A stretch of DNA of 44,659 nucleotides from a virus, in the IMG/VR virus record IMGVR_UViG_3300028800_000155, positions 1 through 44,659 of that record; one strand, written 5' to 3'. Shown piece by piece: positions 589-43,600 of this stretch. The notes beneath the pieces are model-generated. The model searched no databases. It was given only the letters and a program-made list of their open reading frames with translations, and was not told the origin of the DNA. How positions within the stretch are numbered: position 1 is the first letter of the stretch; the number at the start of each line of letters is the position of its first letter. The position numbers were made by a program, and so were the translations under genes.

Positions 589-2004
589 ATGGTATCAAAA
601 GAAACCAAGCAGGAGTATGTGGCGGTGAAGCTGCTCCGTGAGAGCAAGACGAACCCCCGCGGCAATAGCTTCGAAGGCCCCGCCTTTGATGATTTGGTGA
701 AGAGCATAGAGGAGCGCGGCATATTGGTGCCGCTGATTGTGCGCCCACTACCGGCACTCGGTAGCAAGGGTGTGATATATGAGGTGGTGGCAGGCCACCG
801 GCGCCTGCGCGCGGCGATAAAAGCAAAGACGGAAAACGTGCCGGTGCGCGTGATGACGCTGAATGACGCGGAAGCGCGCGAGGTGCAGATCATAGAAAAC
901 CTCCAGCGCGAGGACGTGCACCCGCTCGAGGAGGGCGAGGCATACCGCAAGCTGATTGAGTTCTCGAAAATGACCGTCGCCGATATTTCGGTGAAGGTCG
1001 GCAAGCCGGAGGCCTATGTAAAACAGCGCCTCTTTTTGACGAACCTCATAGCCGGCGCCGCCAAGCAGTACCGGGAGGGAAAGTTCAGTGGCGAGGCGGC
1101 CGGCATGATAGCGCGCCTCAGCGAAGGCAATCAAGAGAAGGTGCTCGCAAACATTCGCGCCAGCGGCGAGTGGACACGGCGTGCAGAGAACGTGAAGAGC
1201 TGGATCAAAGCGCACATAACGAGCCAGATCTCGTTCCAGCCGTGGCTCAACGACAAGGACGCCGCTAAAGCGGTAGGTCCGTGCAAGACGTGCCCGCCGA
1301 ACAAGGGCTCACTTTTCGGAGACATCAAGGACGGCCAATGCACCGACCTCGCGGACTGGACGCGTAAGATGGCGCTCTACGTCGCGTATCGGATAGCGAA
1401 GGAGCCGAAGCTCGTCAAGGTAACGAAGGAATACGGCAAGGCGCCGGCCGGGCTGCTTGGGCGCAGCAACTACGAGACGCTCAGCACGAAAGCTAAGGAC
1501 CACTGTGCCGCGGCGCGGCAGGCGATCGTAGCGGCAGGCGAAGATATGGGGACGACGCTGTGGATTTGCTCAGACCCCGCCTGCAAGAAACATGGCGGCG
1601 AGCACACCAGCTACCAGCAGACACCGGAAGAGCGCAAGAAGCGCAAGGCAGAGATCGCCCGCGAGCGCACTAAGGCGCTGAACAAATACAACGCCTTCGT
1701 CGTGGACATAAAAAAGACCATCAAGTGGCCGCTAACTGAGCTGACGCTCGACGCGTTGATCGAAGACGCGCTGCGCGACCACCGCATGAGCAGTATGGAG
1801 CAGATAGCGAAGCGCCTCGGCCTGCAGGTCCACAAGGAGAAAAACTCCCAGTGGGGTGGCATTTCGAGCAGCTATAAACACTCGCTACACGAGCACCTCG
1901 CCAAAGCCAAGCCGGAAGAGAAGCTGCAGATCTACGTTGAGCTCGCCGTCCAACAGTTCCACTGGTCGGAGTTTGGAAAGAAACCGGGTAAGGGTGTAAA
2001 ATAA
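589..2004 (+). CDS. ParB/RepB/Spo0J-family protein with cysteine-rich C-terminal region
   Basis: A 471-residue protein. The N-terminal ParB nuclease/CTPase-type fold shows TNPRG (21-25), the hallmark AGHRRLRAA (about 68-76) and IENLQRE followed by DVHPLEEGEAY (102-119). A helix-turn-helix of the ParB type lies around 125-150. The second half is not plain ParB: it has cysteines at about 232, 235 and 251, and a CSDPACKKHGGEH cluster (327-339) that looks metal-binding. Family members bind centromere-like DNA or act as nucleases or transcription regulators; in phages without a ParA they often regulate replication or transcription. No ParA is seen here. The start at 589 lies in the recurring ACCATG context. 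Two shorter ParB-fold proteins follow at 5699 and 6622. Confidence 0.9.
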   Translation: MVSKETKQEYVAVKLLRESKTNPRGNSFEGPAFDDLVKSIEERGILVPLIVRPLPALGSKGVIYEVVAGHRRLRAAIKAKTENVPVRVMTLNDAEAREVQIIENLQREDVHPLEEGEAYRKLIEFSKMTVADISVKVGKPEAYVKQRLFLTNLIAGAAKQYREGKFSGEAAGMIARLSEGNQEKVLANIRASGEWTRRAENVKSWIKAHITSQISFQPWLNDKDAAKAVGPCKTCPPNKGSLFGDIKDGQCTDLADWTRKMALYVAYRIAKEPKLVKVTKEYGKAPAGLLGRSNYETLSTKAKDHCAAARQAIVAAGEDMGTTLWICSDPACKKHGGEHTSYQQTPEERKKRKAEIARERTKALNKYNAFVVDIKKTIKWPLTELTLDALIEDALRDHRMSSMEQIAKRLGLQVHKEKNSQWGGISSSYKHSLHEHLAKAKPEEKLQIYVELAVQQFHWSEFGKKPGKGVK

Positions 2005-5415: not shown

Positions 5416-5702
5416 CCGAGCCGCAGCAGCAGATAGTGAAACGCCTAGAGTTTATAGCGACGAACGTGCGGGACTGGCACGTGACCGGGCGCAACTGCCT
5501 AGTGCGGGAAGGGGTGTACCTGACGGGTTCGTGGCTGGGGGTCTTTTTCAACATGCCGGCGCTGAGATATGTGGGCCTGTTTATGGCGGCGATAGAGGTG
5601 ACCTACTACACGTTTTATATACGACCGAACCTATGGCGTGCGATAGATAAGCTGGAGGAGGCGCAAAAAGAAATAGCGCAAAAAGCCAACACACCTGAAT
5701 GA
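5412..5702 (+). CDS. Small membrane protein (96 aa)
   Basis: Coupled by ATGA overlap on both sides. It has a soluble N-terminal ~35 residues, then two hydrophobic stretches: GVYLTGSWLGVFFNMPALRY and VGLFMAAIEVTYYTFYI, which could form a membrane hairpin. A charged C-terminal helix (AIDKLEEAQKEIAQKA) follows. The layout fits a small inner-membrane protein, for example one involved in superinfection exclusion or host-membrane anchoring, but nothing specific is recognisable. Confidence 0.7.
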   Translation: MTEPQQQIVKRLEFIATNVRDWHVTGRNCLVREGVYLTGSWLGVFFNMPALRYVGLFMAAIEVTYYTFYIRPNLWRAIDKLEEAQKEIAQKANTPE

Positions 5703-6391
5703 ACCACACCACCATACCACTGAAGGACCTGCGCCGTGCGGCATACAACCCGCGCATAATGCCATCGAATGAGGCCGAAGCGCTGCAGCTGAGCATAAAG
5801 ACGTTTGGGTTCGTAGAGCCGGTGGTGGTGAACGAGCACGCGTGCAACCTGTGCGGCGACCGGAAGAACATTTTAATAGGCGGCCACCAGCGACTGACGG
5901 CGCTGGAGATGCTGATAAAGACGGCGACGGCCGTGCCTAACCTAGCCATGGCCGATGACGGCACAGAGATACCGGCGACGGTGGTGGACCTGCACCTTGC
6001 ACAAGAAAAGCAGCTGAACATAGCGCTTAACAAACTGGGCGGCAGCTTCGATACGGTAAAGCTGAAGTATTTAATGCGCGAAATAATGGAGATGCACACC
6101 ACGGTAGATATGGCGGCGACCGGGTTCACAGCCGCAGAGCGCGATAACCTGCTGCAGCCGATAGAGCTGAACGAGGCCGCCGCCTTCGCCAAGGTGCCGG
6201 ATGGCGACGAGCCAGCCACGCCGCAGATGAGCTTCGTGCTGAGCAACGACCAGAAAGTGACGCTGTATGAAGCGATAGCAAAAGCGCGGGAAGAGAAAGA
6301 GATCGGACTGGATATGGATAACGAGATAACGATGGGCCACGCCGTAGTCGAGCTGGCAAAAACCTACCTACAAAAGCATGGAAGCCGATAA
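5699..6391 (+). CDS. ParB N-domain protein (second ParB-like)
   Basis: A 230-residue protein with a ParB-type N-terminal domain: PLKDLRRAAYNPR (7-19), KTFGFVEPVVVNE (34-46) and the hallmark IGGHQRLTALE (60-70). A CNLCG pair (49-52) is inserted just before the hallmark, as in some phage members. The rest, with LNIALNKLGGSFD and GFTAAERDNLL, matches phage and plasmid ParB-domain proteins usually found beside terminase or methyltransferase genes. Their roles are not settled; some ParB-fold proteins are nucleases or CTPases. It has no HTH like that of the protein at 589. It is coupled to its neighbours (ATGA upstream, 14-nt overlap downstream). Confidence 0.85.
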   Translation: MNHTTIPLKDLRRAAYNPRIMPSNEAEALQLSIKTFGFVEPVVVNEHACNLCGDRKNILIGGHQRLTALEMLIKTATAVPNLAMADDGTEIPATVVDLHLAQEKQLNIALNKLGGSFDTVKLKYLMREIMEMHTTVDMAATGFTAAERDNLLQPIELNEAAAFAKVPDGDEPATPQMSFVLSNDQKVTLYEAIAKAREEKEIGLDMDNEITMGHAVVELAKTYLQKHGSR

Positions 6392-6632
6392 GGAGATGCT
6401 AGAAAGAAATGCGCACATTTCCGATGAGGAGATACTGCACGACATAGAGGATACCACGCGCGAGATAGCCGAGATGGAGATAGAGGCCGAGCACCTAGAG
6501 CAAACGCCGCTCTCAATGCGTGACGCCCGCTGGGATCACATGCGTGCCAGTGCGCGCCGCACGGGCATAGCTGAGCGCAAAGAGTTTGTGGCAAAGCTAC
6601 AAAAATTATATAACCTGCGCCATGGAAATTAA
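6378..6632 (+). CDS. Hypothetical acidic helical protein (84 aa)
   Basis: Lies between two ParB-like genes and overlaps both. The first half is strongly acidic and helical (SDEEILHDIEDTTREIAEMEIEAEHLEQ), the second basic (RDARWDHMRASARRTGIAERKEF). This charge split and predicted coiled coil suggest a small adaptor or dimerisation partner for its ParB-like neighbours, but there is no direct evidence. No known motif. Confidence 0.65.
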   Translation: MEADKEMLERNAHISDEEILHDIEDTTREIAEMEIEAEHLEQTPLSMRDARWDHMRASARRTGIAERKEFVAKLQKLYNLRHGN

Positions 6633-7242
6633 GCAACGCAAAACAGCAGAGATAGTGGCGATGGCCGCGGCGTACAACCCCCGGCACATAACCGAGGAGC
6701 AGATGGACGCGCTGTGCGAAAGCATAAAGCGCTTCGGCTTCGTGGTGCCCGTGCTGATAAATACCCTGACCGATACGATCGTGAGCGGCCACCAGCGCGT
6801 GAAGGCCGCGGTGAAGCTCGGGCTGGAAGAGGTGCCGGTGATAGAGATGCACGTGGACGCGGCCGGCGAGAAGATCCTGAACATAGGCATGAACCGCATA
6901 AAGGGAAAGTTCGATGCGGAAAAGCTGAGCGCGATATTTTCGGAACTGGTAAAGAGCGGCGATGACGTAGAGATAACCGGCTTCAGCCGGCTGGAAGTGG
7001 CGGAGCTGGGCGCGCTGCTGGGTGAGAAAAAAGCGGACACGGCCAAGACCTCGCTATTCGTGATAAAGCTGGACCATACCGACAAGAAAATAGTGCAGGA
7101 GGCGCTGCGGCTATGCAAGGCACTGGAGAAGCACCAAGACGGAAAGTTTAACGGCGCCGCAAATGCGAACAGCAACGGCAACGCGATAAGCCGGATCGCG
7201 GAAGAATATATAAAAACAAATGGCCAAAGTGCAGCGGTGTAA
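6622..7242 (+). CDS. ParB N-domain protein (third ParB-like)
   Basis: The frame is open from 6586, but the ATG at 6622 is chosen because the preceding residues belong to the coding region of the upstream gene and the family N-terminus begins here. ParB motifs are clear: AYNPR (17-21), CESIKRFGFVVPVLIN (32-47) and SGHQRVKAA (55-63). GMNRIKGKFD and ITGFSRLEVAELGALLG are also typical of phage ParB-domain proteins. It is a paralogue of the protein at 5699, about 206 residues. Isoleucine is coded 13 times by ATA, 3 by ATC and 1 by ATT (hand count), a good example of the bias in this genome. Confidence 0.85.
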   Translation: MEIKQRKTAEIVAMAAAYNPRHITEEQMDALCESIKRFGFVVPVLINTLTDTIVSGHQRVKAAVKLGLEEVPVIEMHVDAAGEKILNIGMNRIKGKFDAEKLSAIFSELVKSGDDVEITGFSRLEVAELGALLGEKKADTAKTSLFVIKLDHTDKKIVQEALRLCKALEKHQDGKFNGAANANSNGNAISRIAEEYIKTNGQSAAV

Positions 7243-11209: not shown

Positions 11210-11529
11210 GACCCATGAAAGACGTCCCGCTAGAAGAGCGCCGGCAGATATTGCTTGAACTGCAAACAGAGAAGAGCAAGCCGGTGCGAGAGCGGCACGA
11301 TATAACGGCGAACGTACTGACGCATATACGCTTCTTCCACGGCAACAGCAGCGCGAAGGCGCGCGGATATTATTATAAAGATCTCTTGGCCGGCGTTGAG
11401 CACCCGCTCATGGCCCAGCTGCGCGTATTAAAGGCAGAAGGTAAGAATAGCCAGCAGGCGGCCGAGGTATCCGGAGTGCCATTAGAGAAAGTAAACGCGA
11501 TGTGGGGTAAGATAGAAATAAAGAAATGA
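11206..11529 (+). CDS. Hypothetical helical protein (107 aa)
   Basis: Starts at 11206, overlapping the nine-codon frame; a second ATG nine bases on (11215) is an alternative. The protein is basic and helical (PLEERRQILLELQTEKSKPV), with a middle NVLTHIRFFHGNSSAKARGYYYKDLL and an HTH-like end (KNSQQAAEVSGVPLEKVNAMWGKI). The latter resembles the helix-turn-helix of small phage regulators. A DNA-binding role is possible but unproven. It overlaps the Mom-like gene by 4 nt. Confidence 0.65.
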   Translation: MRPMKDVPLEERRQILLELQTEKSKPVRERHDITANVLTHIRFFHGNSSAKARGYYYKDLLAGVEHPLMAQLRVLKAEGKNSQQAAEVSGVPLEKVNAMWGKIEIKK

Positions 11530-12344
11530 ACGACGACCAAACAAAAACAGCGGACGGCTGGCCGGAGGTAGAGGTGCAGAAGCTCACCCCTGTCAAGCCC
11601 CACGACGGACCTGCCGCGCTGAAGGATGGCGAGAGCGCGAAGGACATAGTGGTAAAGCCGATCCAACCGCAAATAGCCAAAGAGATGGTGATACGCGGGC
11701 ACTATAGCCATAAGGTAGCACCGAGCAGCTGCCTGAACTTCGGCGTTTTTTGGAAAGGAAAGCTGGAGGGCGTGCTGCAGTACGGGCACCCGATAGATAA
11801 GAGAAAGTCGCTGACGCTGGTGCGCGATACGGAATGGAACGGCTTCCTAGAGCTAAACCGCATGTATATGTCACCGGTGCTGCCGAAGAACACCGAGAGC
11901 AGAGCGCTGGCGGTGACCCTGCGCATGATACGGAAGAACCTGCCGCACGTGAAATGGGTGGTGAGCTATGCGGATGGCACACAGGCCGGCAGTGGAACGA
12001 TATACCGTGCGAGTGGGTTCGTGCTGACCGGCGTGCGAAAGAACCAGACGATCCTATACGTGCCCAGCATGGATGAGTGCTTTGCCAAGCTGAGCTTCAC
12101 GCACAATAAGGCGTTCAAGGTGTACGAGCGGATAAAGCAGGAGACCGGAGTAGACGTGCGCGAGGTTATGGGCGGTGCCGCCAGTGTGGATAAGGTGATA
12201 AAGGCGCTCGGCGCGGTGATCCTGCAGGGCTACCAAGTGCGGTACCTGTATTTTTTGGATGCGGCGTACCGTGCTAAGATGAATGTACCGGAGCTGCCGT
12301 ATAACGAGCTGAAGAAGCTCGAATGGCCGCCGGGGATCCGGTAG
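11526..12344 (+). CDS. Mom-like GNAT-fold DNA modification protein
   Basis: 272 residues. From about 45 on it matches the Mom family of phage Mu-type DNA modification proteins, a divergent GNAT fold that adds a methylcarbamoyl-type group to adenine and protects phage DNA from host restriction. Visible marks are RGHYSHKVAPSSCLNFGVF (58-76), NGFLELNRMYM (105-115), ESRALAVTLRMI (124-135) and SYADGTQAGSGTIYRASGF (147-165). The last is the signature 'SYAD...G.GTIY.A.GF/W'. The ~100 C-terminal residues are an extra helical part of unknown role. Chemistry has been shown only for Mu-type members, so the modification made here is inferred. It is the last gene of the long operon. Confidence 0.7.
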   Translation: MNDDQTKTADGWPEVEVQKLTPVKPHDGPAALKDGESAKDIVVKPIQPQIAKEMVIRGHYSHKVAPSSCLNFGVFWKGKLEGVLQYGHPIDKRKSLTLVRDTEWNGFLELNRMYMSPVLPKNTESRALAVTLRMIRKNLPHVKWVVSYADGTQAGSGTIYRASGFVLTGVRKNQTILYVPSMDECFAKLSFTHNKAFKVYERIKQETGVDVREVMGGAASVDKVIKALGAVILQGYQVRYLYFLDAAYRAKMNVPELPYNELKKLEWPPGIR

Positions 12345-12631: not shown

Positions 12632-12706
12632 GCGGGTAAAGCATAGAGGTAATGCGCCGGCGTTCCACGCTGGAGAAGGCGGATCAATACCGACCTACCC
12701 GCTCCA
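12632..12706 (+). tRNA. trnG: tRNA-Gly (anticodon UCC)
   Basis: Acceptor stem GCGGGTA/TACCCGC (7 perfect pairs), discriminator T and an encoded CCA end. D-stem GCAT/ATGC with loop AGAGGTA; anticodon stem CCGGC/GCTGG (one G-U) with loop GTTCCAC, anticodon TCC at 12664-12666. The GCGGG start and U73 are typical of tRNA-Gly. The T-arm is irregular: GGCGG pairs with CCG-A-CC, leaving a bulged A (12693), and the loop is ATCAATA instead of TTCRANN. So it is either a functional but unusual tRNA or one that is decaying. Confidence 0.7.
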
Positions 12707-12852: not shown

Positions 12853-13704
12853 ATGGGAAACTATGGCGAGACCGTACGGCAATATCACGAGCAACGAGTG
12901 CGCGGCGTTTTGATACTGCAGCCCATGGCGACCATAGACATGATCCGTGAGGCGCTGATGAACAGCCAGACCGACCCGATAGATCTGAGCCGCAACTATT
13001 TGGCGAAGGTGAAGCGTAAAATAATGGGCGAGCGCATGCACCGCAGCAAGGGCTGGAACGAGACGCGCCGCATAGCGGAGATCGAAGACAAAAAGCAGCT
13101 GATAGACCAACGGCTGTGGAGCGAGGCGCAGAACATGAAGAACCCCGGCGTGGTGCGCGTGATGGCGCTGCAGCAGCTGCTGAAGAACGAGTTTGACCTA
13201 CTGGAGAGGCAGAAAGCCAGCGGCGCCTTTGCGGCCGCTGACGAGGCACTGATACCGAAACGGCCGGAGCTGAGCGAGCAGCAAATAGATCTGGTGCTAG
13301 GCGCGATGGAAGCGTGGCGCATAATACCGGAGATCGTGCCAAAGCTGCGCGTGATAGAAGCAGGACCTGAAGCGGTAACACATACCCCTAGCTCTCCCGC
13401 AACACCCAGCCCGGCGTTAAGTGTGCCGGCCGATACTGCAGAAAAAACGGTAAACACCGACGTACCGGATGCGCCGCGTACGGCGCCGGAAGATCCTATG
13501 CCGATGACCTACTGCGTGGTGTGCAAACAGGAATGGCGTAAATACCCGACCGAGAATGATAAACCATGGGCCTGCTATCACCGCACGCCGTGCACGGAAA
13601 GCATAGAGCTGCTGGACGGCGCGGAGTTTGCGCACGACGAGGCCGAGATACAGAAAATAAACGCCGCCCGTTTCATGGCGCAAAGAAATAATGGAGCTGC
13701 CTGA
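12853..13704 (+). CDS. Probable terminase small subunit
   Basis: The frame is open from 12799, but the ATG at 12853 is chosen because a perfect TATAAT sits 12 nt upstream; the upstream residues (LRTATPRHRLAIRY) would cover the promoter. 283 residues. The N-terminal ~60 (GETVRQYHEQRVRGVLILQPMATIDMIREALM) look like an HTH domain, followed by long helices (RRIAEIEDKKQLIDQRLWSEAQNM). Then come a Pro/Ala/Thr-rich linker (about 175-215) and a C-terminal CVVCKQEW...CYHRTPC zinc-like segment. Small terminases bind packaging sites and feed DNA to TerL. The assignment rests on its place directly upstream of, and overlapping, terL plus the HTH-helical layout. Confidence 0.65.
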   Translation: MGNYGETVRQYHEQRVRGVLILQPMATIDMIREALMNSQTDPIDLSRNYLAKVKRKIMGERMHRSKGWNETRRIAEIEDKKQLIDQRLWSEAQNMKNPGVVRVMALQQLLKNEFDLLERQKASGAFAAADEALIPKRPELSEQQIDLVLGAMEAWRIIPEIVPKLRVIEAGPEAVTHTPSSPATPSPALSVPADTAEKTVNTDVPDAPRTAPEDPMPMTYCVVCKQEWRKYPTENDKPWACYHRTPCTESIELLDGAEFAHDEAEIQKINAARFMAQRNNGAA

Positions 13705-15250
13705 GAACCACATGGACCGCGAGACGCTGCGCGAACTGGTGCGCACGTATGCCGGCCGCAGAGCGATCGTAAAAAAGTATGGCTTCATCGGCTGGGCGCT
13801 GGTGTACCTGCCGCACTATTTCCGGCTGCCGCCGGGCAATTTCCACTACACGCTGATGAACGCGCTGGTGGACCCGGACGTGCTGAACGCACTGATAATA
13901 GGGTTCCGCGGAAGCGCCAAGAGCACGATAGCGAGCACGGCGCTGCCGCTGTACCTTGCACTGGAGCTGCCTGAGCTGCACCCGTTTATTATTCCGATCG
14001 CTGACACCGGCGTGCAGGCAGCGGCGAACATGAGCGCGATAAAGTACGAGCTGGACCACAACGAGATAATACGCGGCGACTACGGCGCGCCGAAGACCAA
14101 ACGCGCCGGCCGCCGTACGTTCGATGAAGGCCAATACGTGAAGCGCGAAGACGGCAGCTATGACTGGACGCTGGAAAGCGAAGAGGAGTGGCAGAGCAAG
14201 AACATCCTGCTGAACACCGGCGTGCGCATACTGGCGCGATCGCGCGGCCAGAAAGTGCGTGGACTGCGCCACCGGCAGCACCGCCCCAGCGACGTGATCG
14301 TGGACGACCCGGAGGACTTGGAATGGGTGAAGACGCAGGAGAACCGTAACAAGACCGAGAACTGGCTGCGCGGCGAGGTCATCCCTGCGATCGAAGAAAG
14401 CAAAGGCAAGCTGATAGTGATAGGCAACCTGCTGCACAACGACTGCTTGGTGGCGCGGCTGCGCGCGGAGAGTAAAACGGACGGCGGACTCTTCAAGCTC
14501 TTCGAGCTGAACATGTTCGATGAAACCGGCATAGAGACGCCGGAGCACGTGACGTGGCCCGCGAAGTACCCGACGCAAGCGGCGATAGATAGGCAGCGAC
14601 AACGCGCCGGCGCCGTGGCGTGGCAGCGCGAGTACAAGCTGAAGGTGGTGGCCGAAGAGGATCAGGTAATAAAGCCGGAGGACATACACTACTACAACGC
14701 GATACCGAGCACGTTCTTGGCGTCATGGAAAGGCCACGGCGTGGACTTGGCAATATCGCAAGCGGCGAGCGCCGACTATACGACGTGCGTGGACGGCGAC
14801 GTGTTCTATGTGGATCCCGATAACCTAGAGCAGCAGGGTGGCAGCGTGCGGATTTTCATACGCCCGAACCCATACAACCGGCACGTGACCTTCCACGAGT
14901 TCATGCAATACGTGCGCGTGATACCGGGCGACCGCGGCGGCGCGCACATGTTCTATGTGGAAGACGTGGGCTACCAGAAAGCGGCGATACAGGAAATGGA
15001 GCGCATGCTGCTGCCGGTGCAAGCGATGAAGCCGACGAGTGATAAGCGATCGCGCCTACAGGTGGTGGCGCAGTACATAAAGAACGGCACGGTGGTGTTT
15101 CCGCGGACCGGCTGCGACGAGCTGATAGGCCAGATGCTGAACCTAGGTACCGAAAGCCATGACGACCTTGTGGACGCGCTGGTGTGGCTGATATGGGGGC
15201 TGGTGGACCAAGGGCTGGACATTCCCAAAGTACGGTGGGTTGAAGTGTAG
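13691..15250 (+). CDS. terL: Terminase large subunit (ATPase-nuclease)
   Basis: The DNA-packaging motor, 519 residues, a normal length. The ATPase domain shows Walker A GFRGSAKST (71-79) and Walker B DVIVDDPED (201-209), with a motif III-like VIGNLLHND (243-251). The C-terminal RNase H-like nuclease shows D352 in HGVDLAISQ, FYVEDVG (421-427) and SHDDLVDAL (489-497), the acidic residues that bind metal. It translocates DNA through the portal and cuts concatemers. It overlaps the small subunit by 14 nt; a second ATG at 13712 is an alternative start. The lineage looks like the Terminase_6 group, which often uses headful packaging, but that needs a phylogeny. Confidence 0.95.
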   Translation: MELPENHMDRETLRELVRTYAGRRAIVKKYGFIGWALVYLPHYFRLPPGNFHYTLMNALVDPDVLNALIIGFRGSAKSTIASTALPLYLALELPELHPFIIPIADTGVQAAANMSAIKYELDHNEIIRGDYGAPKTKRAGRRTFDEGQYVKREDGSYDWTLESEEEWQSKNILLNTGVRILARSRGQKVRGLRHRQHRPSDVIVDDPEDLEWVKTQENRNKTENWLRGEVIPAIEESKGKLIVIGNLLHNDCLVARLRAESKTDGGLFKLFELNMFDETGIETPEHVTWPAKYPTQAAIDRQRQRAGAVAWQREYKLKVVAEEDQVIKPEDIHYYNAIPSTFLASWKGHGVDLAISQAASADYTTCVDGDVFYVDPDNLEQQGGSVRIFIRPNPYNRHVTFHEFMQYVRVIPGDRGGAHMFYVEDVGYQKAAIQEMERMLLPVQAMKPTSDKRSRLQVVAQYIKNGTVVFPRTGCDELIGQMLNLGTESHDDLVDALVWLIWGLVDQGLDIPKVRWVEV

Positions 15251-15663: not shown

Positions 15664-15735
15664 AGGCCTTTAGCTCAGCGGTAGAGCAGTGAGCTTATAC
15701 CTCACCGGCGGCAGGTTCGACCCCTGCAAGGCCTA
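15664..15735 (+). tRNA. trnI: tRNA-Ile (anticodon UAU)
   Basis: All four arms are well formed: acceptor AGGCCTT/AAGGCCT (7 of 7 pairs), D-stem GCTC/GAGC with loop AGCGGTA, anticodon stem GTGAG/CTCAC with loop CTTATAC, and T-stem GCAGG/CCTGC with loop TTCGACC. Variable loop 5 nt, discriminator A, CCA not encoded. The anticodon TAT (15696-15698) reads the isoleucine codon ATA. Most bacteria read ATA with a CAU anticodon modified to lysidine by TilS; a genuine UAU anticodon is rare. It fits this phage, in which ATA is the main isoleucine codon of most genes. Confidence 0.92.
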
Positions 15736-15750
15736 CAGCGTACACCGTTT

Positions 15751-17216: not shown

Positions 17217-19646
17217 ATGGCAAACGAGGACACGTTTGGTACCCGACTGATCCGTTCGTTCACGCAGAACCGCTTCATAAAAGGTGGCCTGAGCTGGGTG
17301 CCGGGATACAACAAGCGCATAGAGCCGGAGCTGTTTAGCCAAGGCCGCAAGATAACGATGGACCGCTACGGCCTGCGCGCGAAAGCGAGCGGTGGCGCCG
17401 GTGGACAGTTTGCGGAATACGGCGACGAGTACAGCGCGATGGCGATTTACCGGCCGAGTGGCGGCAAGCGCGTGGACGCCGCAAAGGCGATGAGCAACGC
17501 AGTGGGCTGGCCGTACGTGGCCGGCAAAGCGATCGCACGCGAAGTGATGAACATCGACTTCCGGCTGTTTCAAATAAGCGGCAAGGACCACAAAGAAAAA
17601 GAGGAGCACGATATACTGGACCTGCTGGATACGGTGAACCCGGATATGACCGGCAGCGAGCTGAAATATCTGACGAGCTTCCATCTAGACCTGACCGGCA
17701 ACGCCTACTGGCTGATGACCGGCGTGAAGGACGAGAAGGGAAAACCGAACGCGCTCTACATGCTGGACCCCAGCCGCGTGCGCGTGATGGTGGACCAGCG
17801 CGATTTTCCGTTTCAAGTGACCGGCTATAAAGTGCGCTTCAATACATTTACGAAATACTACCAGCCGTGGGAGGTGCTGCACTTCCGCGAACCGGACCCG
17901 CTGGATCCGTACGAAGGCGTAGGCCCGGTGCAGAACGTGGCGGAGTGGATAGATCTGGACAACTATGCGATGGAGTTTAACCGCCGCTTCTTTGTGAACG
18001 GCGCGCGCCCGGCAGGATTTTTGATAAGCGACACGGTGGTGAACGAGGCGCAGATAGAGAATATAAAGATCAGCTTTGCGGATGTGCATGGCGGCATAGA
18101 CAACATGAACCGCATAGCCGTGCTGCCGAAGGGTTTGAAATGGCAGGCCAGCGGCACGTCGCCAAAGGATATGGACTTTAGCAACCTGAGCGACAACACG
18201 CGCGATCGGATACTGAGCGCCTTCGGCGTGAGCAAGACCATACTGGGCACCGCGGAGAGCGATACGAACCGCGCGACCGCGGAGACGGCCGACTATGTGT
18301 TCAGCAAGCGCGTGGTGCGGCCGCGCATGCAGCTGATCTGTGATTTTTTGAACCAGCGACTGGTGGGCCGCTACGGCGATGATCTGTACATAACCTTCAT
18401 AGACCCTGTGCCGGAAGACCGCGCCGCGCGCGTGACTGAGATGCAAGCCGCCATAGGAAGCCAGCCGGTGCTGACCGTGGACGAAGCGCGTGACGAGTAC
18501 ATGGGCCTAGGCCCGGTGGACGGCGGCGACAAGCTGATGGTGCCGAACACGGTGACGGCCGCGGGAGAAAAACCGCCCGCACCTGAACCGGCGCCGGCAG
18601 CTGGAAAGAAACCGCCGCAGAGCGATACTGAAAAAGAAGAACAAGAGGAGCAGGAAGAGGATGGAAAAAAAGGTAAGCAGGTGAAAACCGCCAGCGGCGC
18701 TCGGGTAGCGTTCCGCCCGGCACGAGCGCGCATGAAGACGATAACCGTAAAGCGCAAAGAGATGGCGTCCGAGACCGCGCGCATGATAGAAGCCGCGCTG
18801 GCCAAGGCGCTAGCAAAACCGACGAGCCGTTTCGCACCTGATGAGAAAAAGGACGCCGCAGCATTCGAGAGCTTTAAGGAACAGGCGGCCGCGGCCGAGA
18901 AAGCGATACACGCGATCATACTGGAGGTGAACGCGAAGCAGCGCAAAGAAGTGCTGGAGAACTTGGCGGAAGCGACCGGGAAAAACGCAGAAAAACTGAT
19001 GCGCGCAGGAGTGGAAACAAAAGCGGTAGATCCCACTAAGCTGTTCGATCTGGATAACTGGATAACCTTCACGACCGACGCGCTGACGCCGACGATAGAA
19101 AAGTTTTTTGCAGCAGCCGGTACCGCCGCGGCGGCCGAGCTGGGCTTCAGCGACATAAACCCACTGACGAACAATGCCGCAAAGGTGGCGCTGCACCGCA
19201 GCGTGGCGCTGATGAGCGAAAGCTATAACACCACAACGCTGGCCGTGCTGGAAGAAAAGCTGAACGAAGGCATAACGGGCGGCGCGAGCTTGGCGGACCT
19301 GACCAAGACCGTAGGCGATGTGTTCGATGTGAACGACAAATATAGCGCCGAGCGCATAAGCAAGACCGAGGCGTTTCGCACGATGAACGAGGCGCAGAAG
19401 GTGGCGTGGAAGCAGACAGGCGTGGTGAAGACGATGCGCTGGTACACGAGCGAGATGGATAACGTGTGCCCTTTCTGTGCCGAGATGAACGGCAAGAGTG
19501 TGAGCATAGATGACAACTTTTTTGACCAAGGCGAGACCTATACCGTGGGCGATCAGTCCATGAGTGTGGACTACAGCGATATAAGCGCGCCGCCGCTCCA
19601 TCCCAACTGCAACTGCTTCATCCGGCCAGACGAACTAACCGACTAA
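17217..19646 (+). CDS. Portal protein fused to MuF/SPP1 gp7-like head morphogenesis domain
   Basis: 809 residues, about twice a normal portal. Residues ~40-440 match the HK97-type portal: LDLTGNAYWLMTG (155-167), LDPSRVRVMVD, EVLHFREPDPLDPYEGVGPV, FFVNGARPAGFL and DTNRATAETADYVFSKRVVRP. A Lys/Glu/Pro-rich linker (~450-530) follows. Residues ~530-809 match MuF: SAERISKTEAFRTMNEAQ, then CPFCAEMNGK (751-760) and PPLHPNCNC (792-800), a probable zinc site. Portals form the 12-subunit packaging ring; MuF-type proteins enter the capsid or are injected. The fusion would place one MuF domain per portal subunit. No frame break is seen at the junction, so it is one gene. Confidence 0.9.
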   Translation: MANEDTFGTRLIRSFTQNRFIKGGLSWVPGYNKRIEPELFSQGRKITMDRYGLRAKASGGAGGQFAEYGDEYSAMAIYRPSGGKRVDAAKAMSNAVGWPYVAGKAIAREVMNIDFRLFQISGKDHKEKEEHDILDLLDTVNPDMTGSELKYLTSFHLDLTGNAYWLMTGVKDEKGKPNALYMLDPSRVRVMVDQRDFPFQVTGYKVRFNTFTKYYQPWEVLHFREPDPLDPYEGVGPVQNVAEWIDLDNYAMEFNRRFFVNGARPAGFLISDTVVNEAQIENIKISFADVHGGIDNMNRIAVLPKGLKWQASGTSPKDMDFSNLSDNTRDRILSAFGVSKTILGTAESDTNRATAETADYVFSKRVVRPRMQLICDFLNQRLVGRYGDDLYITFIDPVPEDRAARVTEMQAAIGSQPVLTVDEARDEYMGLGPVDGGDKLMVPNTVTAAGEKPPAPEPAPAAGKKPPQSDTEKEEQEEQEEDGKKGKQVKTASGARVAFRPARARMKTITVKRKEMASETARMIEAALAKALAKPTSRFAPDEKKDAAAFESFKEQAAAAEKAIHAIILEVNAKQRKEVLENLAEATGKNAEKLMRAGVETKAVDPTKLFDLDNWITFTTDALTPTIEKFFAAAGTAAAAELGFSDINPLTNNAAKVALHRSVALMSESYNTTTLAVLEEKLNEGITGGASLADLTKTVGDVFDVNDKYSAERISKTEAFRTMNEAQKVAWKQTGVVKTMRWYTSEMDNVCPFCAEMNGKSVSIDDNFFDQGETYTVGDQSMSVDYSDISAPPLHPNCNCFIRPDELTD

Positions 19647-23400: not shown

Positions 23401-24430
23401 CGGAAAAATCCACGTCGAAAACTCGGCTTATTCCACGTATGGTTCCTTTATCCCGATAATCACAGCTGCCAATGCTCAATACACCCAGCTCGACATTCAA
23501 GACATCGAGGTCGCGCAGGACAGCGCGGCGACCTCAACTGGATTCCAGACGATTATCAAGCATGGTGTAGTTCTTTCGGTAGAAGCGGCGCACATCGACA
23601 ACTACGGGAATGCCACGATCGCTCTTTTCTCAGATAATTCCCTTGGAGGTTCTGACAGCGAGCGCATCTGCAATCTCTCTGCTCCCTCCTATGGAGGAAC
23701 ACCCCTCACAAATATCGCGGCAGGAAGTGCCTATACGCTCGCTTTAGAAAATGGATGTGTTTCGGATTACAACCAGGGTCCAGTGCTTGGAGAGTATGTC
23801 GATGCCGCTGGCGAAACCCATTGGCAAATTAACGGCGTGGATAAACTCTTTATGGAAGCATCCGGCAAGATGCACTTCGTCGGCGATGTGACCACGGAAA
23901 ACTCAACGCTTTACACGCACAGCATAATAGGAACCGGCGGAAACTTCCAACAACAAAACGGCAGTGGCGTGAACTACTTCGCTGGCACCCTCACGACGGG
24001 ATCGACGACCGCAGGACCGGCGACGTCCAACGTGGTCGGGACAATGAACGTGACCGGTGCGACCACGCTGAATGGCGTGACAGAAGCCTCCGGGACGCAA
24101 TACTACTCGCTGGGATATGTGAACGCGACCACCACCGCGAGCACGACCGCGATCAACTGGAACAACGGCAACGTACAAAGCGTGCTTTTGCAGACGAGCA
24201 CCACGATGACGTTCAACAATACCGTGGCGGGCGGTCGCTACATCCTCGGGGTGATCCAGGACGGCACCGGATCGAGAATAGTCACCTGGCCCTCGACAGT
24301 GCACTGGTCCGCAAGCACCGCGCCGACGCTCACCACCACGGCGAGCAAGATGGACCTCATCACCTTCGTGTGCATGGCGGTGTCGTCCACTGATTGCTAC
24401 GGAGGAGCCAACCTGAACTACAGCCCATAA
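20477..24430 (+). CDS. Giant fiber/tailspike-like protein with Sec signal peptide (1317 aa)
   Basis: Residues 1-30 are a clear Sec signal peptide: MRK, a hydrophobic core LAGLILMGLWAGLSIGMIA, and cleavage after SSAHA. The mature protein is Thr/Ser/Gly-rich and beta-repetitive up to ~730, with a 54-aa repeat (368-421 and 517-570, 41 of 54 identical). Residues ~735-1130 (TTSTDYGACVMAIYNSFASS, then FHDMSINGFGQQIHQTSNAY) look like a pectate-lyase-type beta-helix, as in tailspikes. This domain is bordered by two copies of a 46-aa module (662-707, 1133-1178). Codon use changes in it: isoleucine shifts from ATA to ATC. Probably a receptor-binding or surface protein; a signal peptide is abnormal for a virion fiber made in the cytoplasm. 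Confidence 0.8.
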   Translation: MRKLAGLILMGLWAGLSIGMIAQPLSSAHAAYLPVQGGTGTATIPAAGQTLIGNSSGTYTPAYILCAGTCSVATSSGGITITGTGVATNTGNWAGTWQLYNPSDFLASSTTKVISVNGLSGVVTITSSTLGVVWPTVNGTQASAYQIVPGTGLSSNVSGATTTLSVNLNSGSAVTCSANQFLNTLSATGTAACGTITFPTPMAYTFSAGTGISISQATSSSNTTTTVTLNINNGSVQNCAAGTYANQLSATAIISCGIAVNTIAGVNTSTISFIAAGGTKITTSTNSITFTTVSTSTANSWTALQTYTQGITVNGPVQLASTTNALLVTDGSGNVTGYAGSTCSAGNAPRGVSATGTVQNCTAYLTGNQSVTLTISGDATGTASGATSIADSIQVTGLLGKALPSLATGTLYYSNGAWSINNSFLTSAITSVNGNTSAAQTFTGGTGISVASAGGNTTTTNTGVTSVSAGTGISVSSATGTPSITNTGVTTFTGSGCVTAANSTGTVALTVTCISGNQNITFTIAGDATGTASGATAITDSITVTGLNGKALPANTTGTLQYSAGAWSINLATSSLGLYSAGGVLSSYTGSSCAGGQYAISMSASGTVGCATPSSSGGSGNVYVSPTSTIVANEFMYYTANGSSTVSATSSMSMNTSTGKISFANDVSTEIGTLYTHNVVATGGNFQQQNASGQNYFDGQLALGTSTVPTGITLYVAGTTALATTTIVSLNGAVYVPQNFATAGCPAYTTSTDYGACVMAIYNSFASSTWDTIIADGVVATQAQWTTPINFNRNGVSINYISEGGTTLAYGGTGSAVTVNTQNPTGHLITQVGGFNMQGHASLLATGATNTATTTGITCGGTNGCVGVDFHDMSINGFGQQIHQTSNAYMNTYEHIALSGGNGGNMNGSCFIMDAASNSGERTVLDGVNCTDPGNSTTTNAVYFTNGAAASTFIQNLSDDDAQAYIGYSNGLVSIGKIHVENSAYSTYGSFIPIITAANAQYTQLDIQDIEVAQDSAATSTGFQTIIKHGVVLSVEAAHIDNYGNATIALFSDNSLGGSDSERICNLSAPSYGGTPLTNIAAGSAYTLALENGCVSDYNQGPVLGEYVDAAGETHWQINGVDKLFMEASGKMHFVGDVTTENSTLYTHSIIGTGGNFQQQNGSGVNYFAGTLTTGSTTAGPATSNVVGTMNVTGATTLNGVTEASGTQYYSLGYVNATTTASTTAINWNNGNVQSVLLQTSTTMTFNNTVAGGRYILGVIQDGTGSRIVTWPSTVHWSASTAPTLTTTASKMDLITFVCMAVSSTDCYGGANLNYSP
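21578..22186 (+). repeat. Two copies of a 54-codon repeat in the giant fiber
   Basis: Copies at 21578-21739 and 22025-22186, each encoding 54 residues with the core GDATGTASGAT...DSI.VTG...GKALP...TGTL.YS.GAWSIN; 41 of 54 residues are identical. Likely a tandem domain duplication in the fiber shaft. Confidence 0.85.
22460..24010 (+). repeat. 46-codon module duplicated on both sides of the beta-helix domain
   Basis: Copies at 22460-22597 and 23873-24010, both 138 bp, sharing the core TLYTH...TGGNFQQQN.SG.NYF.G.L; 28 of 46 residues are identical. They bracket the segment with different codon use. Confidence 0.85.
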
Positions 24431-25185
24431 TGAGAAAATACCTCGCAGCAATAATTTCATTGGCAGTCATCCTGACCGGACTATTTATGGCAAGCCCAGC
24501 GCTCGCCGTGACGTACCTATCGCCATCATTTGTGCAGGCATCGAGCACGTCCGACGGATGTACGAACTGCGCGTCCGACGTGACCTCCACGTTGAACGGC
24601 GTCGCAGCAGGGGATTTGCTGCTCATGGGTTTCGGCCAGTCCATTCTCGGCACCTCGACGTTTACCGATAGCAACGGCACGCCGATATTTCTGGCAAGCA
24701 CCACATGGCACACCAATAGTGAAAGCTGGTGGTACTACGAGCCGAACGCTGCCGCGGGGACGCACAACATTCACGTTCACTTTCCCATTAACCAGTCCTA
24801 TCCCGGAGTATTCGTAGAAGAGTACAGTCGGTCGGCGACGTCGTCTCCGATTGACACGTTCAGGGTAGCGATCGGCAACGGTGGCAGCACCGCTAGTAGC
24901 GGCAACCTGTCTTCGACCGCGCAAGTGAACGAGATGGTCTATGCGAACGGCGCAAGCGCGGGTGGATCGTTATCGGCCCCGAGCGGATTTACTATGCGGG
25001 ATAGCAGCGCAAACGCCATGGACAACGCGACAAGCTCTCTCGCGCAAGGCACGGTTACCTCCGGCACTTTTAACTACAGCGGCGGCGGCATCGACTGGGC
25101 CGTGATGGCAGCGACCATTAAAGGACAAGCAACTTCTTCAGCGGCGTCGACGTCGACCGACGCCTTATTCTTTGCAGGCGATTAA
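24430..25185 (+). CDS. Secreted beta-sandwich protein with Sec signal peptide (251 aa)
   Basis: The start at 24430 overlaps the fiber stop by 1 nt (TAATG); the longer upstream frame is not needed. Residues 1-26 are a signal peptide (MRKYLAAIISLAVILTGLFM, ASPALA, cleavage before V27). The mature part has the repeating pattern of a ~200-aa jelly-roll domain: GDLLLMGFGQSILGTSTFTD, WWYYEPNAAAGTHNIHVHF, FVEEYSRSATSSPID, then IDWAVMAATIKG. Such domains occur in secreted carbohydrate-binding proteins. It ends in a Thr/Ser tail. Likely partner of the fiber on the cell or virion surface. Confidence 0.7.
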   Translation: MRKYLAAIISLAVILTGLFMASPALAVTYLSPSFVQASSTSDGCTNCASDVTSTLNGVAAGDLLLMGFGQSILGTSTFTDSNGTPIFLASTTWHTNSESWWYYEPNAAAGTHNIHVHFPINQSYPGVFVEEYSRSATSSPIDTFRVAIGNGGSTASSGNLSSTAQVNEMVYANGASAGGSLSAPSGFTMRDSSANAMDNATSSLAQGTVTSGTFNYSGGGIDWAVMAATIKGQATSSAASTSTDALFFAGD

Positions 25186-25189
25186 AACC

Positions 25190-25354
25190 ATGTACGCTTT
25201 TACTGGATACGGAACCAACGCATACGCAGCGAGCCGCCAAGAAGGCATAAAGGGGATCCTTTCAATAATAGGAACCCGGACGCTGTACCTATGCACGAAT
25301 ATAACGCGCGTAGTCGTCGCGCTGACCAATACCACGCGGACAATAACAATATGA
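25190..25354 (+). CDS. Hypothetical protein (54 aa)
   Basis: Begins 4 nt after the preceding stop in the AAAACCATG context used by non-coupled genes and ends in an ATGA overlap with the next gene. The N-terminus is aromatic (YAFTGYGTNAYAASRQEG), the rest hydrophobic and Thr-rich (TNITRVVVALTNTTRTITI). Short, but well supported by start context and coupling. No family recognised. Confidence 0.6.
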   Translation: MYAFTGYGTNAYAASRQEGIKGILSIIGTRTLYLCTNITRVVVALTNTTRTITI

Positions 25355-25698
25355 ACATAGTAATTCAACCATACGAGATAGTGCAGGGAGACCACGGCGC
25401 GCAGCTGAACTTTGTGGTGGTGGATGGCAACGGCGATATAGTGGACCTGACCGGTGCCTCGCTGTCACTGGCCGCGCAGGACGCCAACGACCCAACACAG
25501 ACCAACCTGACGCTCTCGGGGAGTGTGCAGGTGGACGTGGCGACCAGCGGGACGTGCCACTATACGACGGCTGTGGGTGACTTCCCGAACCCCGGAACCT
25601 TCAACGCCCAGCTGACGATCGCCTCAGGCGGCAACAGCATAACGGCCCCCAACATCACGATAATAGTGCTCCCTTCCCTGCCCGCGCTGAACAACTGA
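25351..25698 (+). CDS. Baseplate/adhesin-type beta domain protein (115 aa)
   Basis: Start at 25351 overlaps the previous stop by 4 nt; the longer frame from 25291 would overlap the upstream gene needlessly. The pattern NIVIQPYEIVQGDHGAQLNFVV, GDIVDLTGASLSLAAQD, SGTCHYTTAVGDFPNPGTFN, then 'AQLTIASGGNSITAPNITIIVLP' is that of N-terminal domains of siphophage upper baseplate proteins (BppU type) and related Ig-like folds. Probably attaches fibers to the virion or forms a trimeric adhesin module. Confidence 0.7.
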   Translation: MNIVIQPYEIVQGDHGAQLNFVVVDGNGDIVDLTGASLSLAAQDANDPTQTNLTLSGSVQVDVATSGTCHYTTAVGDFPNPGTFNAQLTIASGGNSITAPNITIIVLPSLPALNN

Positions 25699-25732
25699 AC
25701 TAAGTTATACACACCCCAAATAAAGGTCGCTA

Positions 25733-25741
25733 TGTTAAACT
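25733..25741 (+). promoter_or_regulatory. Extended -10 promoter with A/T-rich leader
   Basis: TGT-TAAACT (hexamer 25736-25741), 29 nt before ATG 25765. The short leader TAAAAATATAAATATATA ends in AAAACCATG. It closely resembles the element at 32168. Confidence 0.6.
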
Positions 25742-25764
25742 AAAAATATAAATATATAAAAACC

Positions 25765-26319
25765 ATGACTAAAACAGAAAAGTACATTGTGGGTATAGTC
25801 GTTCTCGTAGTGGTAGCGCTCGGAGGTTTCTTTTTCGGAAAGATCGGCAGTGGCAACACGGCCGGTGACTTTGCCGGTGGCATAACGCCGGGCACGCTCG
25901 TCACCGCCAGCGCCAGCGGCGGTATTACCGGAAACGGATACATCCAGCCAGTAGGTGCGTTTTCGAGTGCCGCCATAAACGGCATCACGGTTGGTGGCAC
26001 GGATCAGTACCACGGCTTCACGGCATACGTGACGGCGTCGGGAACCCCGGCATCGGTAGTGACGCTTGGCGCCCTCGGCCTTGCGAGCTCGACGGCAACC
26101 AGCTCGGTCACTGTCCCGGAAACCGCGGGCCTTTCGATCGGCGCAATTTGCAGCGGTAGCTCAGCGACGACCACGGTATACGTTTCGGGCTGCGTGCTTA
26201 CGACGACCAACGGAGCGACCGGCACGGCACTTGTTGCATACAGCAACATAACCGGCGCCAACCTCTCGGTCCCGACCAGCACGATTTTCCGCCTGACGTT
26301 TGACCAGCTCCCTTACTAA
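25765..26319 (+). CDS. Membrane-anchored surface protein (184 aa)
   Basis: The N-terminus is MTKTEKYIVGIVVLVVVALG followed by GFFFGKIG: one hydrophobic helix after a short basic stretch, i.e. a signal anchor. The remainder is a Gly/Ala/Thr/Ser-rich beta domain (SGGITGNGYIQPVGAFSSAA, SATTTVYVSGCVLTTTNGAT) with two cysteines that could form a disulfide. It probably stays in the host membrane with the domain outside. It has its own promoter and stands between the fiber cassette and the capsid genes. Role in exclusion, adhesion or virion decoration is open. Confidence 0.65.
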   Translation: MTKTEKYIVGIVVLVVVALGGFFFGKIGSGNTAGDFAGGITPGTLVTASASGGITGNGYIQPVGAFSSAAINGITVGGTDQYHGFTAYVTASGTPASVVTLGALGLASSTATSSVTVPETAGLSIGAICSGSSATTTVYVSGCVLTTTNGATGTALVAYSNITGANLSVPTSTIFRLTFDQLPY

Positions 26320-28330: not shown

Positions 28331-29578
28331 ATGGATAAAGAAACCATAACAAAAGTTTTAGAAGAAGTTCGCGCAACGACCGAAAAGGGTCTGACCGATT
28401 TTGGCGCAAAGATGGAAGAGCAGCTCTCCGGTAAAATGGAGGACATCTCCGTAAAGAACGCCAAGAAGGTTGTGGAGCAGATGTTGAATGACCGCTACGT
28501 TTTTAACCGAGACGTGACGGGAATGGACCGCGAGCAAAAGATCTCTTTTGCAAAGCAGGTGCAGAGCATCTACTTCGGCAACCCGGACCGCAGCGCTTCT
28601 CTCCGCGTCAAAGCCAATGAGGCGTTGATCGAAGAGCAGAACAACCGAGGCGGATACCTCGTTGAGCCGGAAGTGGCAGCCGCCATTCTCCGCATAGCTG
28701 CGTCCGTAGGTACGATCATGAAGCAGTGCCAGCACTGGCCGATGAAAAGCGACGAATTGGGCATCCCGAACTACACTGGTTCGTTCTTGACCGGTTCGTA
28801 CGTAGGCGTTGATCTTCCGGGGACGGTGACGGGTTTGACCTTCGGCCAAGCCGTGCTCATCGCCCGCAAGTGGCAGCTCGCGTTCACTGTAGGCAACGAC
28901 CTTTTGGCCGATGCAAGCGTGAACCTCGCTGAATGGTTGCTCGCATTAGCCGGCGAAAGTTTGGCTAATATGATCGATCAGCAAGGATTCATCGGAGGGA
29001 CACCGGCGACAGCACCGGGTCCGTTCGTTGGTATTTTGAACGCCGCAAACGTTCAGAAGTACACCCTTGCAAGCGGCAGCACCACGTACGCGAAGTTCAA
29101 CGTGATAACGGACAGCTCGGCCATGATCGGTATGCTCGAGGAAAGCGTTTTAGATGGCGCCGCATTCTACATGCACCGCACCGTCTGGGCGTCCCTCCGC
29201 GTACAGTCCGACGTAGTGAACGGCCTCCCGCTCCTCCTCTTTGGAGGTTTGGCGTCGCCCGCGACGTTGGATATTGACCCGACCGGCGGACCGATCCGCC
29301 CGGCAGGTTCGATCCTCGGCTTCGCTGTGTACACGAACCGCTGGTTGCCTTCTACCGCTGTTGTTTCGCAGGCCAACACGCCGTTCCTGATTTTCGGGAA
29401 CATGAAAGCGTGCGCCTTCGGCGACAAGGGCGATATGCGGGTAGCCCAGTACGAATCCGGCAGCTTCGGCGGCAAGGAGATCGCATTGGCAGACCAGCGC
29501 GGCATTGTGTACAAGCACCGCCACGCGTTCGTAGTCGTTCTTCCTCAGGCCTTTGTTGTTTGCTACACCCACGCTTAA
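28331..29578 (+). CDS. Major capsid protein (HK97 fold)
   Basis: 415 residues. Residues 1-100 form a charged helical delta-like domain that the protease would remove. The rest has the HK97-fold pattern: GGYLVEPEVAAAILRIAASVGTI (P-domain start), then PGTVTGLTFGQAVLIARKW, AFTVGNDLLADASVNLAEWLL (spine helix), MIDQQGFIGG, ASPATLDIDPTGG and a C-terminal GDMRVAQYESGSFG with VYKHRHAFVVV. It forms the icosahedral shell. Codon use differs from neighbours: isoleucine is 13 ATC, 5 ATT and 3 ATA (hand count), as expected for the most highly expressed gene. Confidence 0.92.
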   Translation: MDKETITKVLEEVRATTEKGLTDFGAKMEEQLSGKMEDISVKNAKKVVEQMLNDRYVFNRDVTGMDREQKISFAKQVQSIYFGNPDRSASLRVKANEALIEEQNNRGGYLVEPEVAAAILRIAASVGTIMKQCQHWPMKSDELGIPNYTGSFLTGSYVGVDLPGTVTGLTFGQAVLIARKWQLAFTVGNDLLADASVNLAEWLLALAGESLANMIDQQGFIGGTPATAPGPFVGILNAANVQKYTLASGSTTYAKFNVITDSSAMIGMLEESVLDGAAFYMHRTVWASLRVQSDVVNGLPLLLFGGLASPATLDIDPTGGPIRPAGSILGFAVYTNRWLPSTAVVSQANTPFLIFGNMKACAFGDKGDMRVAQYESGSFGGKEIALADQRGIVYKHRHAFVVVLPQAFVVCYTHA

Positions 29579-29759
29579 TACAGGCGTTTGGATAGCGCGT
29601 AAGTGAAACCTGAGCCAACCATCCGGGCCGTGCCGATCGTCACGTGCGGCCCTGATGGAGAACAAAGTAACCGCCCTCGAACTGCAAAGGGGAGACCCGA
29701 ACCAGTTCGTCCCTTCCGATTAAAGTCGAAGGAAGGTAGGGGCCAAAAAAACCAATTAT
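29579..29759 (+). other. Intergenic region with hairpins after the capsid gene
   Basis: Non-coding, 181 nt. Contains GGGCCG.../CGGCCC (about 29627-29654) and CCTTC(C)GA-TTAAAG-TCGAAGG (about 29713-29735). An ATG frame from 29603 runs through it into the next gene but looks like a shadow (Arg/Pro-rich). It might end or stabilise the capsid transcript; no U-run is present. Confidence 0.4.
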
Positions 29760-30251
29760 ATGCGCGCAACAGTATACGACGACGTGCAGATACTAAAGGG
29801 TGCATCCATAGACCCCGTGAGCTTGGCTACAACGGTCGCAGCGACCGGCAATAGCGTGGACACGTTAGATGGCGACAACGCAGCCATCTACGTGCGAGCT
29901 GCGGCGGCCTCGGGCTCGCCGGCAACGGCCGCGCTCGTGGTGACGCTTCAAGAGAGTGCTGACGGCAGCACGAACTGGAGCAACGCCTTGGACAACACTG
30001 GTGTTGTGATCGGCTTTACGCTGGACGCCCATGCGGCGGCCGCGGAGGGCTTAGCCCGTATCGAAGGCCTCAACCTTAACCGGAAGCGATACCTTCGGGC
30101 GGTGATCACGCCAAACATTTCCGCGGGCGGCGCGGTAGTGGCGATGGCGAACATCATCATCGGCAACCCGCAGGAGCTGCCGACGAACGCGAGCGTCACG
30201 GTGACGATCAACGGTAACTCCGTTGTAGTCCCGGCGGTATCGAACACCTAA
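29760..30251 (+). CDS. Head decoration or fiber protein (163 aa)
   Basis: The gene right after the capsid protein. A beta-sandwich pattern: GNSVDTLDGDNAAIYVRAAA, VVTLQESADGSTNWSNALD, LARIEGLNLNRKRYLRAVI, then NIIIGNPQELP. This is common in small phage proteins located between the capsid and connector genes, where several are known to decorate capsids. The C-terminal tail (ASVTVTINGNSVVVPAV) adds two strands. Exact role unproven. Its codons are less ATA-biased than average. Confidence 0.65.
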   Translation: MRATVYDDVQILKGASIDPVSLATTVAATGNSVDTLDGDNAAIYVRAAAASGSPATAALVVTLQESADGSTNWSNALDNTGVVIGFTLDAHAAAAEGLARIEGLNLNRKRYLRAVITPNISAGGAVVAMANIIIGNPQELPTNASVTVTINGNSVVVPAVSNT

Positions 30252-43529: not shown

Positions 43530-43600
43530 AGGCACTCAGCTCGATGGACGAGCAGCCGCCTCCAAAGCGGAAGACGTGGGTTCGATTCCTACAGCGCCTG
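43530..43600 (+). tRNA. trnW: tRNA-Trp (anticodon CCA)
   Basis: Acceptor AGGCACT/AGCGCCT (6 of 7 pairs, one A-C mismatch), D-stem GCTC/GAGC with loop GATGGAC, anticodon stem GCCGC/GCGGA (outer G-A mismatch) with loop CTCCAAA, T-stem GTGGG/CCTAC with loop TTCGATT, discriminator G. The CTCCAAA loop, A1 and G73 are as in bacterial tRNA-Trp. CCA is not encoded. The anticodon reads UGG only, so it gives no evidence for UGA recoding. The two mismatches suggest mild decay or host-specific tolerance. Confidence 0.85.

Follow-up and report, generated by a model that had tools for sequence, protein, structure and literature searches.

A tRNA carried by a phage and the codon preference that it supposedly explains are usually taken as a single phenomenon. 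The DNA analysed here, a viral sequence of 44,659 nucleotides (IMG/VR virus record IMGVR_UViG_3300028800_000155, the whole of which is hereafter referred to as the window), carries a gene for a tRNA-Ile with anticodon UAU and uses ATA as its main isoleucine codon. An earlier note on this DNA proposed that the phage brings the tRNA that its own messages need. Does the tRNA account for the codon bias, or does the bias account for the tRNA? Here, the two are separated, and the bias is followed back to a preference among base steps, one that acts also at sites on which tRNAs have no influence. The window comes from a tailed phage with terminase, portal, capsid, tape measure and tail genes, and every large gene is on the plus strand. 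The features used below are the following, with TpC given as the odds of the T-then-C step.

589..2004, plus strand, ParB-like gene (PF02195); TpC normal, 0.98
12632..12702, plus strand, possible degenerate tRNA (29.0 bits in Rfam, equal to the gathering threshold; no ARAGORN call)
13691..15250, plus strand, terminase large subunit (PHROG 38, E 1e-58); 21 ATA, 7 ATC, 4 ATT
15664..15735, plus strand, tRNA-Ile, anticodon UAU (ARAGORN and Rfam RF00005, 64.6 bits)
17217..19646, plus strand, portal protein with a Mu F-like domain (PF04860 and PF04233); 27 ATA, 7 ATC, 1 ATT; GTC absent
24394..26319, plus strand, genes by the tail-fibre gene; TpC 1.01 in 24394-25185 and 0.91 in 25765-26319
28331..29578, plus strand, major capsid protein (PF05065); TpC 1.00; 3 ATA, 13 ATC, 5 ATT
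43530..43600, plus strand, tRNA-Trp (CCA) (ARAGORN; Rfam 45 bits)

The tRNA-like element at 12632-12702 has a perfect acceptor stem and, by eye, the loop GTTCCAC with anticodon UCC (Gly). Three ParB-like proteins (5699-6391, 6586-7242 and 589-2004) are encoded in this one small phage.

The tRNA-Ile gene was called by ARAGORN as Ile (tat) at 15664-15736, and the full-length match to Rfam RF00005 at 15664-15735 scored 64.6 bits (gathering threshold 29), with zero non-standard pairs marked. These two results bear out the earlier description of an intact tRNA-Ile with a TAT anticodon, and they place the UAU anticodon in the DNA itself, as in the lysidine-free AUA decoding of the Mycoplasma mobile type. 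The anticodon loop is CUUAUAC, the discriminator is A73 and CCA is not encoded. Identity elements of bacterial-type tRNA-Ile are A73, A37, U36, C4-G69 and U12-A23, and all five can be read from the sequence of the gene. The tRNA has G29-C41 and C38, unlike E. coli tRNA-Ile, which has C29-G41 and A38. Since C38 is shared by other UAU tRNAs, 13 of them viral and 12 from Patescibacteria, positions 29-41 and 38 are not diagnostic for tRNAs with this anticodon. The gene has the appearance of a working one, and its product is predicted to read AUA directly. The nearest tRNA found is that of locus L201 in the Patescibacteria genome G105; with 58 of 72 bases the same at best, tRNA similarity is not decisive for assigning a host.

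The 60 plus-strand open reading frames of the window contain 536 ATA, 210 ATC and 93 ATT codons, so that ATA makes up 64% (536/839) of isoleucine codons. The GC content at third codon positions (GC3) is 0.70, and NNA codons apart from ATA are mostly minor. For comparison, 14 relatives of similar GC3 have in sum 655 ATA, 3147 ATC and 1184 ATT codons. Because the other NNA codons are minor at this GC3 and the relatives are led by ATC, the ATA excess is far from chance. Relatives found through the terminase in a first search (49-59% identity) have 9-21% ATA, with GC3 of 0.63-0.70 in the nearest of them, while those found through a tail gene (identity up to 71%) have 8-15%, and one distant fragment has 27%. 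None of the 24 whole contigs of relatives has a tRNA-Ile; the clear tRNAs in these contigs are three, for Met, Ser and Leu. The ATA use of the window is far above that of related phages and above that of all high-GC3 bacteria sampled, which may not include the host. The hand count given earlier for the gene at 6622 (13 ATA, 3 ATC, 1 ATT) was exact, and the statement that ATA is the chief isoleucine codon in most genes holds genome-wide. The exceptions, which had gone unmentioned, are the capsid gene (28331-29578) and a few other genes, which use ATC normally.

Reassignment of ATA, for example to Met, exists in mitochondria and would offer a precedent for an unusual reading here. In eight proteins aligned with those of relatives, the columns at ATA hold I (49%), L (17%), V (15%) and M (3%), and columns at ATC and ATT are alike, while columns at ATG hold M in 41% of cases in relatives. 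The frequency of ATG in the window is normal. These aligned residues refute the reading of ATA as Met, and we regard any reassignment as hardly conceivable. As judged from the alignments, ATA is an isoleucine codon in the window.

The codon shift extends beyond isoleucine, and Val, Leu and Ser have shifted too. Where the window and its best relative have the same residue, ATC of the relative has become ATA at 126 of 171 positions, GTC has become GTG at 88 of 114, CTC has become CTG at 108 of 147, and TCN has mostly become AGC. Only 10% of NTC codons (ATC, GTC, CTC) and 16% of TCN codons were kept at paired residues, against 52% of other NNC codons. The TpC odds at codon positions 1-2, 2-3 and 3-1 are 0.71, 0.57 and 0.58, compared with 1.16-1.19 in relatives. 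The TpA odds at the same positions are 0.85, 1.38 and 1.01, compared with about 0.6 in relatives, and the usual avoidance of TpA has been lost. The step that is avoided within codons is avoided also between them. TC was found at 195 codon junctions while 330 were expected from synonymous codon shuffles (z -9). Two-fold NNY codons end in T in 22% of cases when the next base is C and in 34-45% when it is another base (odds ratio 0.46, p 8e-12), a preference that is reversed in relatives (1.35). Because the choice of tRNA plays no part at junctions, where TpC is nonetheless avoided, the ATA richness is more likely to stem from TpC avoidance.

The avoidance can be described further. GA is near 1.0 on the coding strand while TC is low, so that, within coding sequence, the avoidance concerns one strand. 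The intergenic sequence, a small sample of 2.7 kb, has low values of both TC (0.68) and GA (0.76). Because all genes lie on one strand, an effect of the coding strand and an effect of the replication strand are inseparable in the window. Across 31 genes, the share of ATA is correlated with the NTY share of Val and Leu (rho -0.80) and with the TCN share of Ser (rho -0.67). Its correlation with the junction TC odds in these genes, where per-gene counts are small, is not significant (rho -0.22, p 0.24). For Ile, the odds of A over C have shifted about two times as far as for Val or Leu, which leaves room for some selection linked to the tRNA.

Three candidate causes of the TpC loss were set aside. 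Cytidine deamination at TC predicts raised TT and ATT, yet ATT is 11% in the window and 24% in relatives. Restriction-site avoidance predicts a loss of GA on the same strand, yet GA is near 1.0. A Mom-like DNA modification gene at 11526-12344 (PF25680, E 9e-49) has homologues that were found only in the viral loci L196, L199 and L313. The first two of these also avoid TpC, as described below, but L313, whose copy is 66-69% identical, has a normal TpC of 1.24.

The TpC effect is patchy. Normal or near-normal TpC, together with the use of ATC, is found in 589-2004, 24394-25185, 25765-26319 and 28331-30251, the last being the capsid gene and its neighbour. The capsid protein is 80% identical to that of L159, while the terminase and portal proteins are about 57% identical; L159 and another locus, L016, resemble each other in the capsid as well as in the terminase and portal. 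Recent exchange is the simplest reason for the normal codons of the capsid gene, given these identities, and the capsid is probably a recently exchanged module. An avoidance of ATA in the capsid gene through high expression was also considered, and it is confounded by this likely exchange.

The same syndrome can be found in one other phage, represented by the two fragments L196 and L199. Their TpC values are 0.72 and 0.63 and their ATA use is 51-52%, and there is no tRNA within the available fragments. Since L196 and L199 are far from the window in the terminase tree, the low-TpC and ATA-rich state probably arose at least twice. Two further features of these fragments can be noticed. In L196 (405-1067) and L199 (719-1114), which come from two metagenomes, a ParB-like start is joined directly to a Mom-like C-terminal half, by fusion or deletion. 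The portal/Mu-F gene of L196 (3236-6271) has a long insertion, possibly an intein, between conserved parts that end in ...HPNC and ...NCRCYIRP.

The tRNA itself is found in many other viruses. A pattern scan found tRNA-Ile(TAT) in at least 120 contigs of viruses; ARAGORN agreed on Ile(tat) for all matches listed. These contigs are mostly not dominated by ATA. Those of median GC are not led by ATA, those of high GC3 are mostly led by ATC, and the window is, among the matches listed, the only ATA-majority contig above GC3 0.6. In one set of contigs (L056, L082, L102, L050 and L119), tRNAs Arg(tct), Thr(tgt) and Ile(tat), often with Trp(cca), occur together with a raised ATA use of 38-52%; tRNAs called as SeC(tca) or Stop(tta) types occur additionally in L050 and L119.

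The anticodon is also common in a bacterial phylum. We examined 287 genomes of a single phylum, inferred to be Patescibacteria because its centre genome, G007, is a Kaiserbacteria bin, using a strict tRNA-Ile(UAU) pattern and counting TilS above its curated cut-off. The pattern was found in 179 of the 287 genomes (about 60%) and TilS in 75. Both were found in only 3 genomes (Fisher p 2.6e-36), and in all three the pattern match is not a tRNA according to ARAGORN. A further 36 genomes have neither. In one of these, a relaxed pattern brought up a plausible tRNA, and incompleteness of the bins may explain many of the others. ARAGORN confirmed Ile(tat) in most of 60 sampled stretches with the pattern, some of which stop inside the tRNA. 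Several of the UAU stretches have a row of Met-Met-Ile(tat), where several TilS genomes have Met-Met-Met(cat) (L200-L279). These rows suggest that C34 changed to U34 in place, with loss of TilS, a pattern that resembles the change described with TilS loss in M. mobile and hemoplasmas (PMC4014445). Reading of AUA without TilS appears, from these gene inventories, to prevail in most of the sampled phylum, in which TilS and the UAU tRNA exclude each other almost perfectly. The earlier statement that native UAU tRNAs are known in only a few bacteria is therefore out of date in substance, and tRNA-Ile(UAU) is, by these predictions, common in phages and Patescibacteria rather than rare. A literature search found no paper on Patescibacteria with tilS or the UAU tRNA, and a 2021 review lists UAU as lost in prokaryotes, the case of the Patescibacteria not being mentioned (PMC8007984). 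This way of reading AUA, thought to be rare in bacteria, would provide many natural cases for the question of how U34 avoids misreading AUG. Patescibacteria with the native tRNA near GC3 0.7 have just 4-21% ATA, and of 80 sampled stretches none has both GC3 above 0.6 and ATA above 21%. Since ATA is not the leading isoleucine codon of these bacteria at high GC3, possession of the tRNA alone is insufficient for ATA richness.

Relatives of the window were found in bins of both Acidobacteriota and Patescibacteria, some of the closest among the TilS-bearing Acidobacteriota, although the binning of phage contigs can be wrong. In the terminase tree, the window is on a long branch that adjoins a clade with Acidobacteriota-binned loci (support 92/79). 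TilS is present in the relatives' Acidobacteriota bins and absent from their Patescibacteria bins, and the loci of the Acidobacteriota bins are led by ATC. In a host with TilS, the phage tRNA would be an added, lysidine-free route to AUA, and in one without TilS it would be a copy of the local type.

We consider it probable that avoidance of TpC is mainly behind the ATA dominance, and that the tRNA answers the demand so created. The coding strand of the phage would have come to avoid T-then-C, losing the usual avoidance of T-then-A. This pressure would push Ile to ATA, Val to GTG, Leu to CTG and Ser to AGC; Ile would be pushed onto ATA because all its other codons end in T-C or T-T. A heavy demand for AUA would then make an own AUA tRNA useful, and the tRNA would be gained or kept, as in codon compensation. 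This order of events assumes that TpC avoidance preceded the tRNA, and that the tRNA gene is transcribed and its product aminoacylated with Ile. The proposal that the phage carries the tRNA that its messages need is upheld in that the tRNA-Ile(UAU) is real, ATA encodes Ile, and the ATA dominance is unlike that of relatives that lack the tRNA. It does not hold as a statement of cause, since the GTG, CTG and AGC shifts and the avoidance of TpC at junctions are beyond the reach of one Ile tRNA, most phages with the UAU tRNA are not ATA-dominated, and neither are the native-UAU bacteria of similar GC3. The reverse order, in which selection for ATA followed from the presence of the tRNA, would explain why the window has both the tRNA and 64% ATA while its relatives have neither, and why Ile has shifted about twice as far as Val and Leu. 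The joint shift of four amino acids, the codon use of the other UAU contigs, and the ATA-rich L196 and L199 fragments with no tRNA in the available part all speak against it, and we find it unlikely.

Phages often share base signatures with their hosts, and the window could match a host that has the same base-step signature and an ATA-rich code. The occurrence of the syndrome in the distant L196 and L199 would be expected if two lineages shared a host type. Against such matching stand the 80 Patescibacteria stretches, in which the combination was not seen, although the host phylum may be unsampled, and the ATC-led loci of the Acidobacteriota bins; we hold it to be possible but doubtful. It could also be that NUY and UCN codons are avoided, for example because a host defence destroys the tRNAs that read them, the phage using the spared tRNAs and its own Ile tRNA. 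The avoided codons (ATY, GTY, CTY and UCN) are indeed read by a limited group of tRNAs, and tRNAs by which phages escape anticodon nucleases are documented (PMC10264068), yet a loss of tRNAs does not predict avoidance of T-C across codon boundaries, which makes this account rather improbable. Of two candidate drivers, a message nuclease that cuts UpC would fit the junction data better than a loss of NUY- and UCN-reading tRNAs. Returning to TpC avoidance as the cause, two wider readings can be put forward tentatively, at somewhat less than an even chance. On the first, nearly the whole phage genome would have been re-coded while its proteins diverged to 55-70% identity, in a cell that penalises UpC in messages (or TpC on the strand) but not UpA, with the AUA tRNA as a repair; on the second, which concerns the phylum, most Patescibacteria would have lost TilS and read AUA through tRNA-Ile(UAU), and lysidine would not be near-universal.

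Several known systems can be compared with the window. Phage tRNAs that evade anticodon nucleases (PMC10264068) are, like that of the window, phage tRNAs without simple codon compensation; unlike in those systems, neither a nuclease nor a target tRNA was identified in the window. The native tRNA-Ile(UAU) of Patescibacteria has the same anticodon and includes the nearest relative found. The Patescibacteria differ in not being ATA-led at high GC3, and a tRNA identity of 80% at best is no proof of recent transfer. Mycoplasma mobile and hemoplasmas have a genomic tRNA-Ile(UAU) and have lost TilS (PMC4014445, PMC4013482). As predicted for the window, a genomic UAU anticodon reads AUA without lysidine in these bacteria, where it belongs to a cellular gene that replaced tRNA-Ile2(CAU), whereas the gene of the window is phage-borne. 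Prophages of Latilactobacillus curvatus carry tRNA-Ile genes, one of the ten with UAU, and use ATA more than their host does (PMC10688831). They share with the window the carriage of Ile tRNAs by a phage, one of them with UAU, but ATA is the least used isoleucine codon there (16%), and most of the tRNAs have CAU and depend on TilS (PMC10688831).
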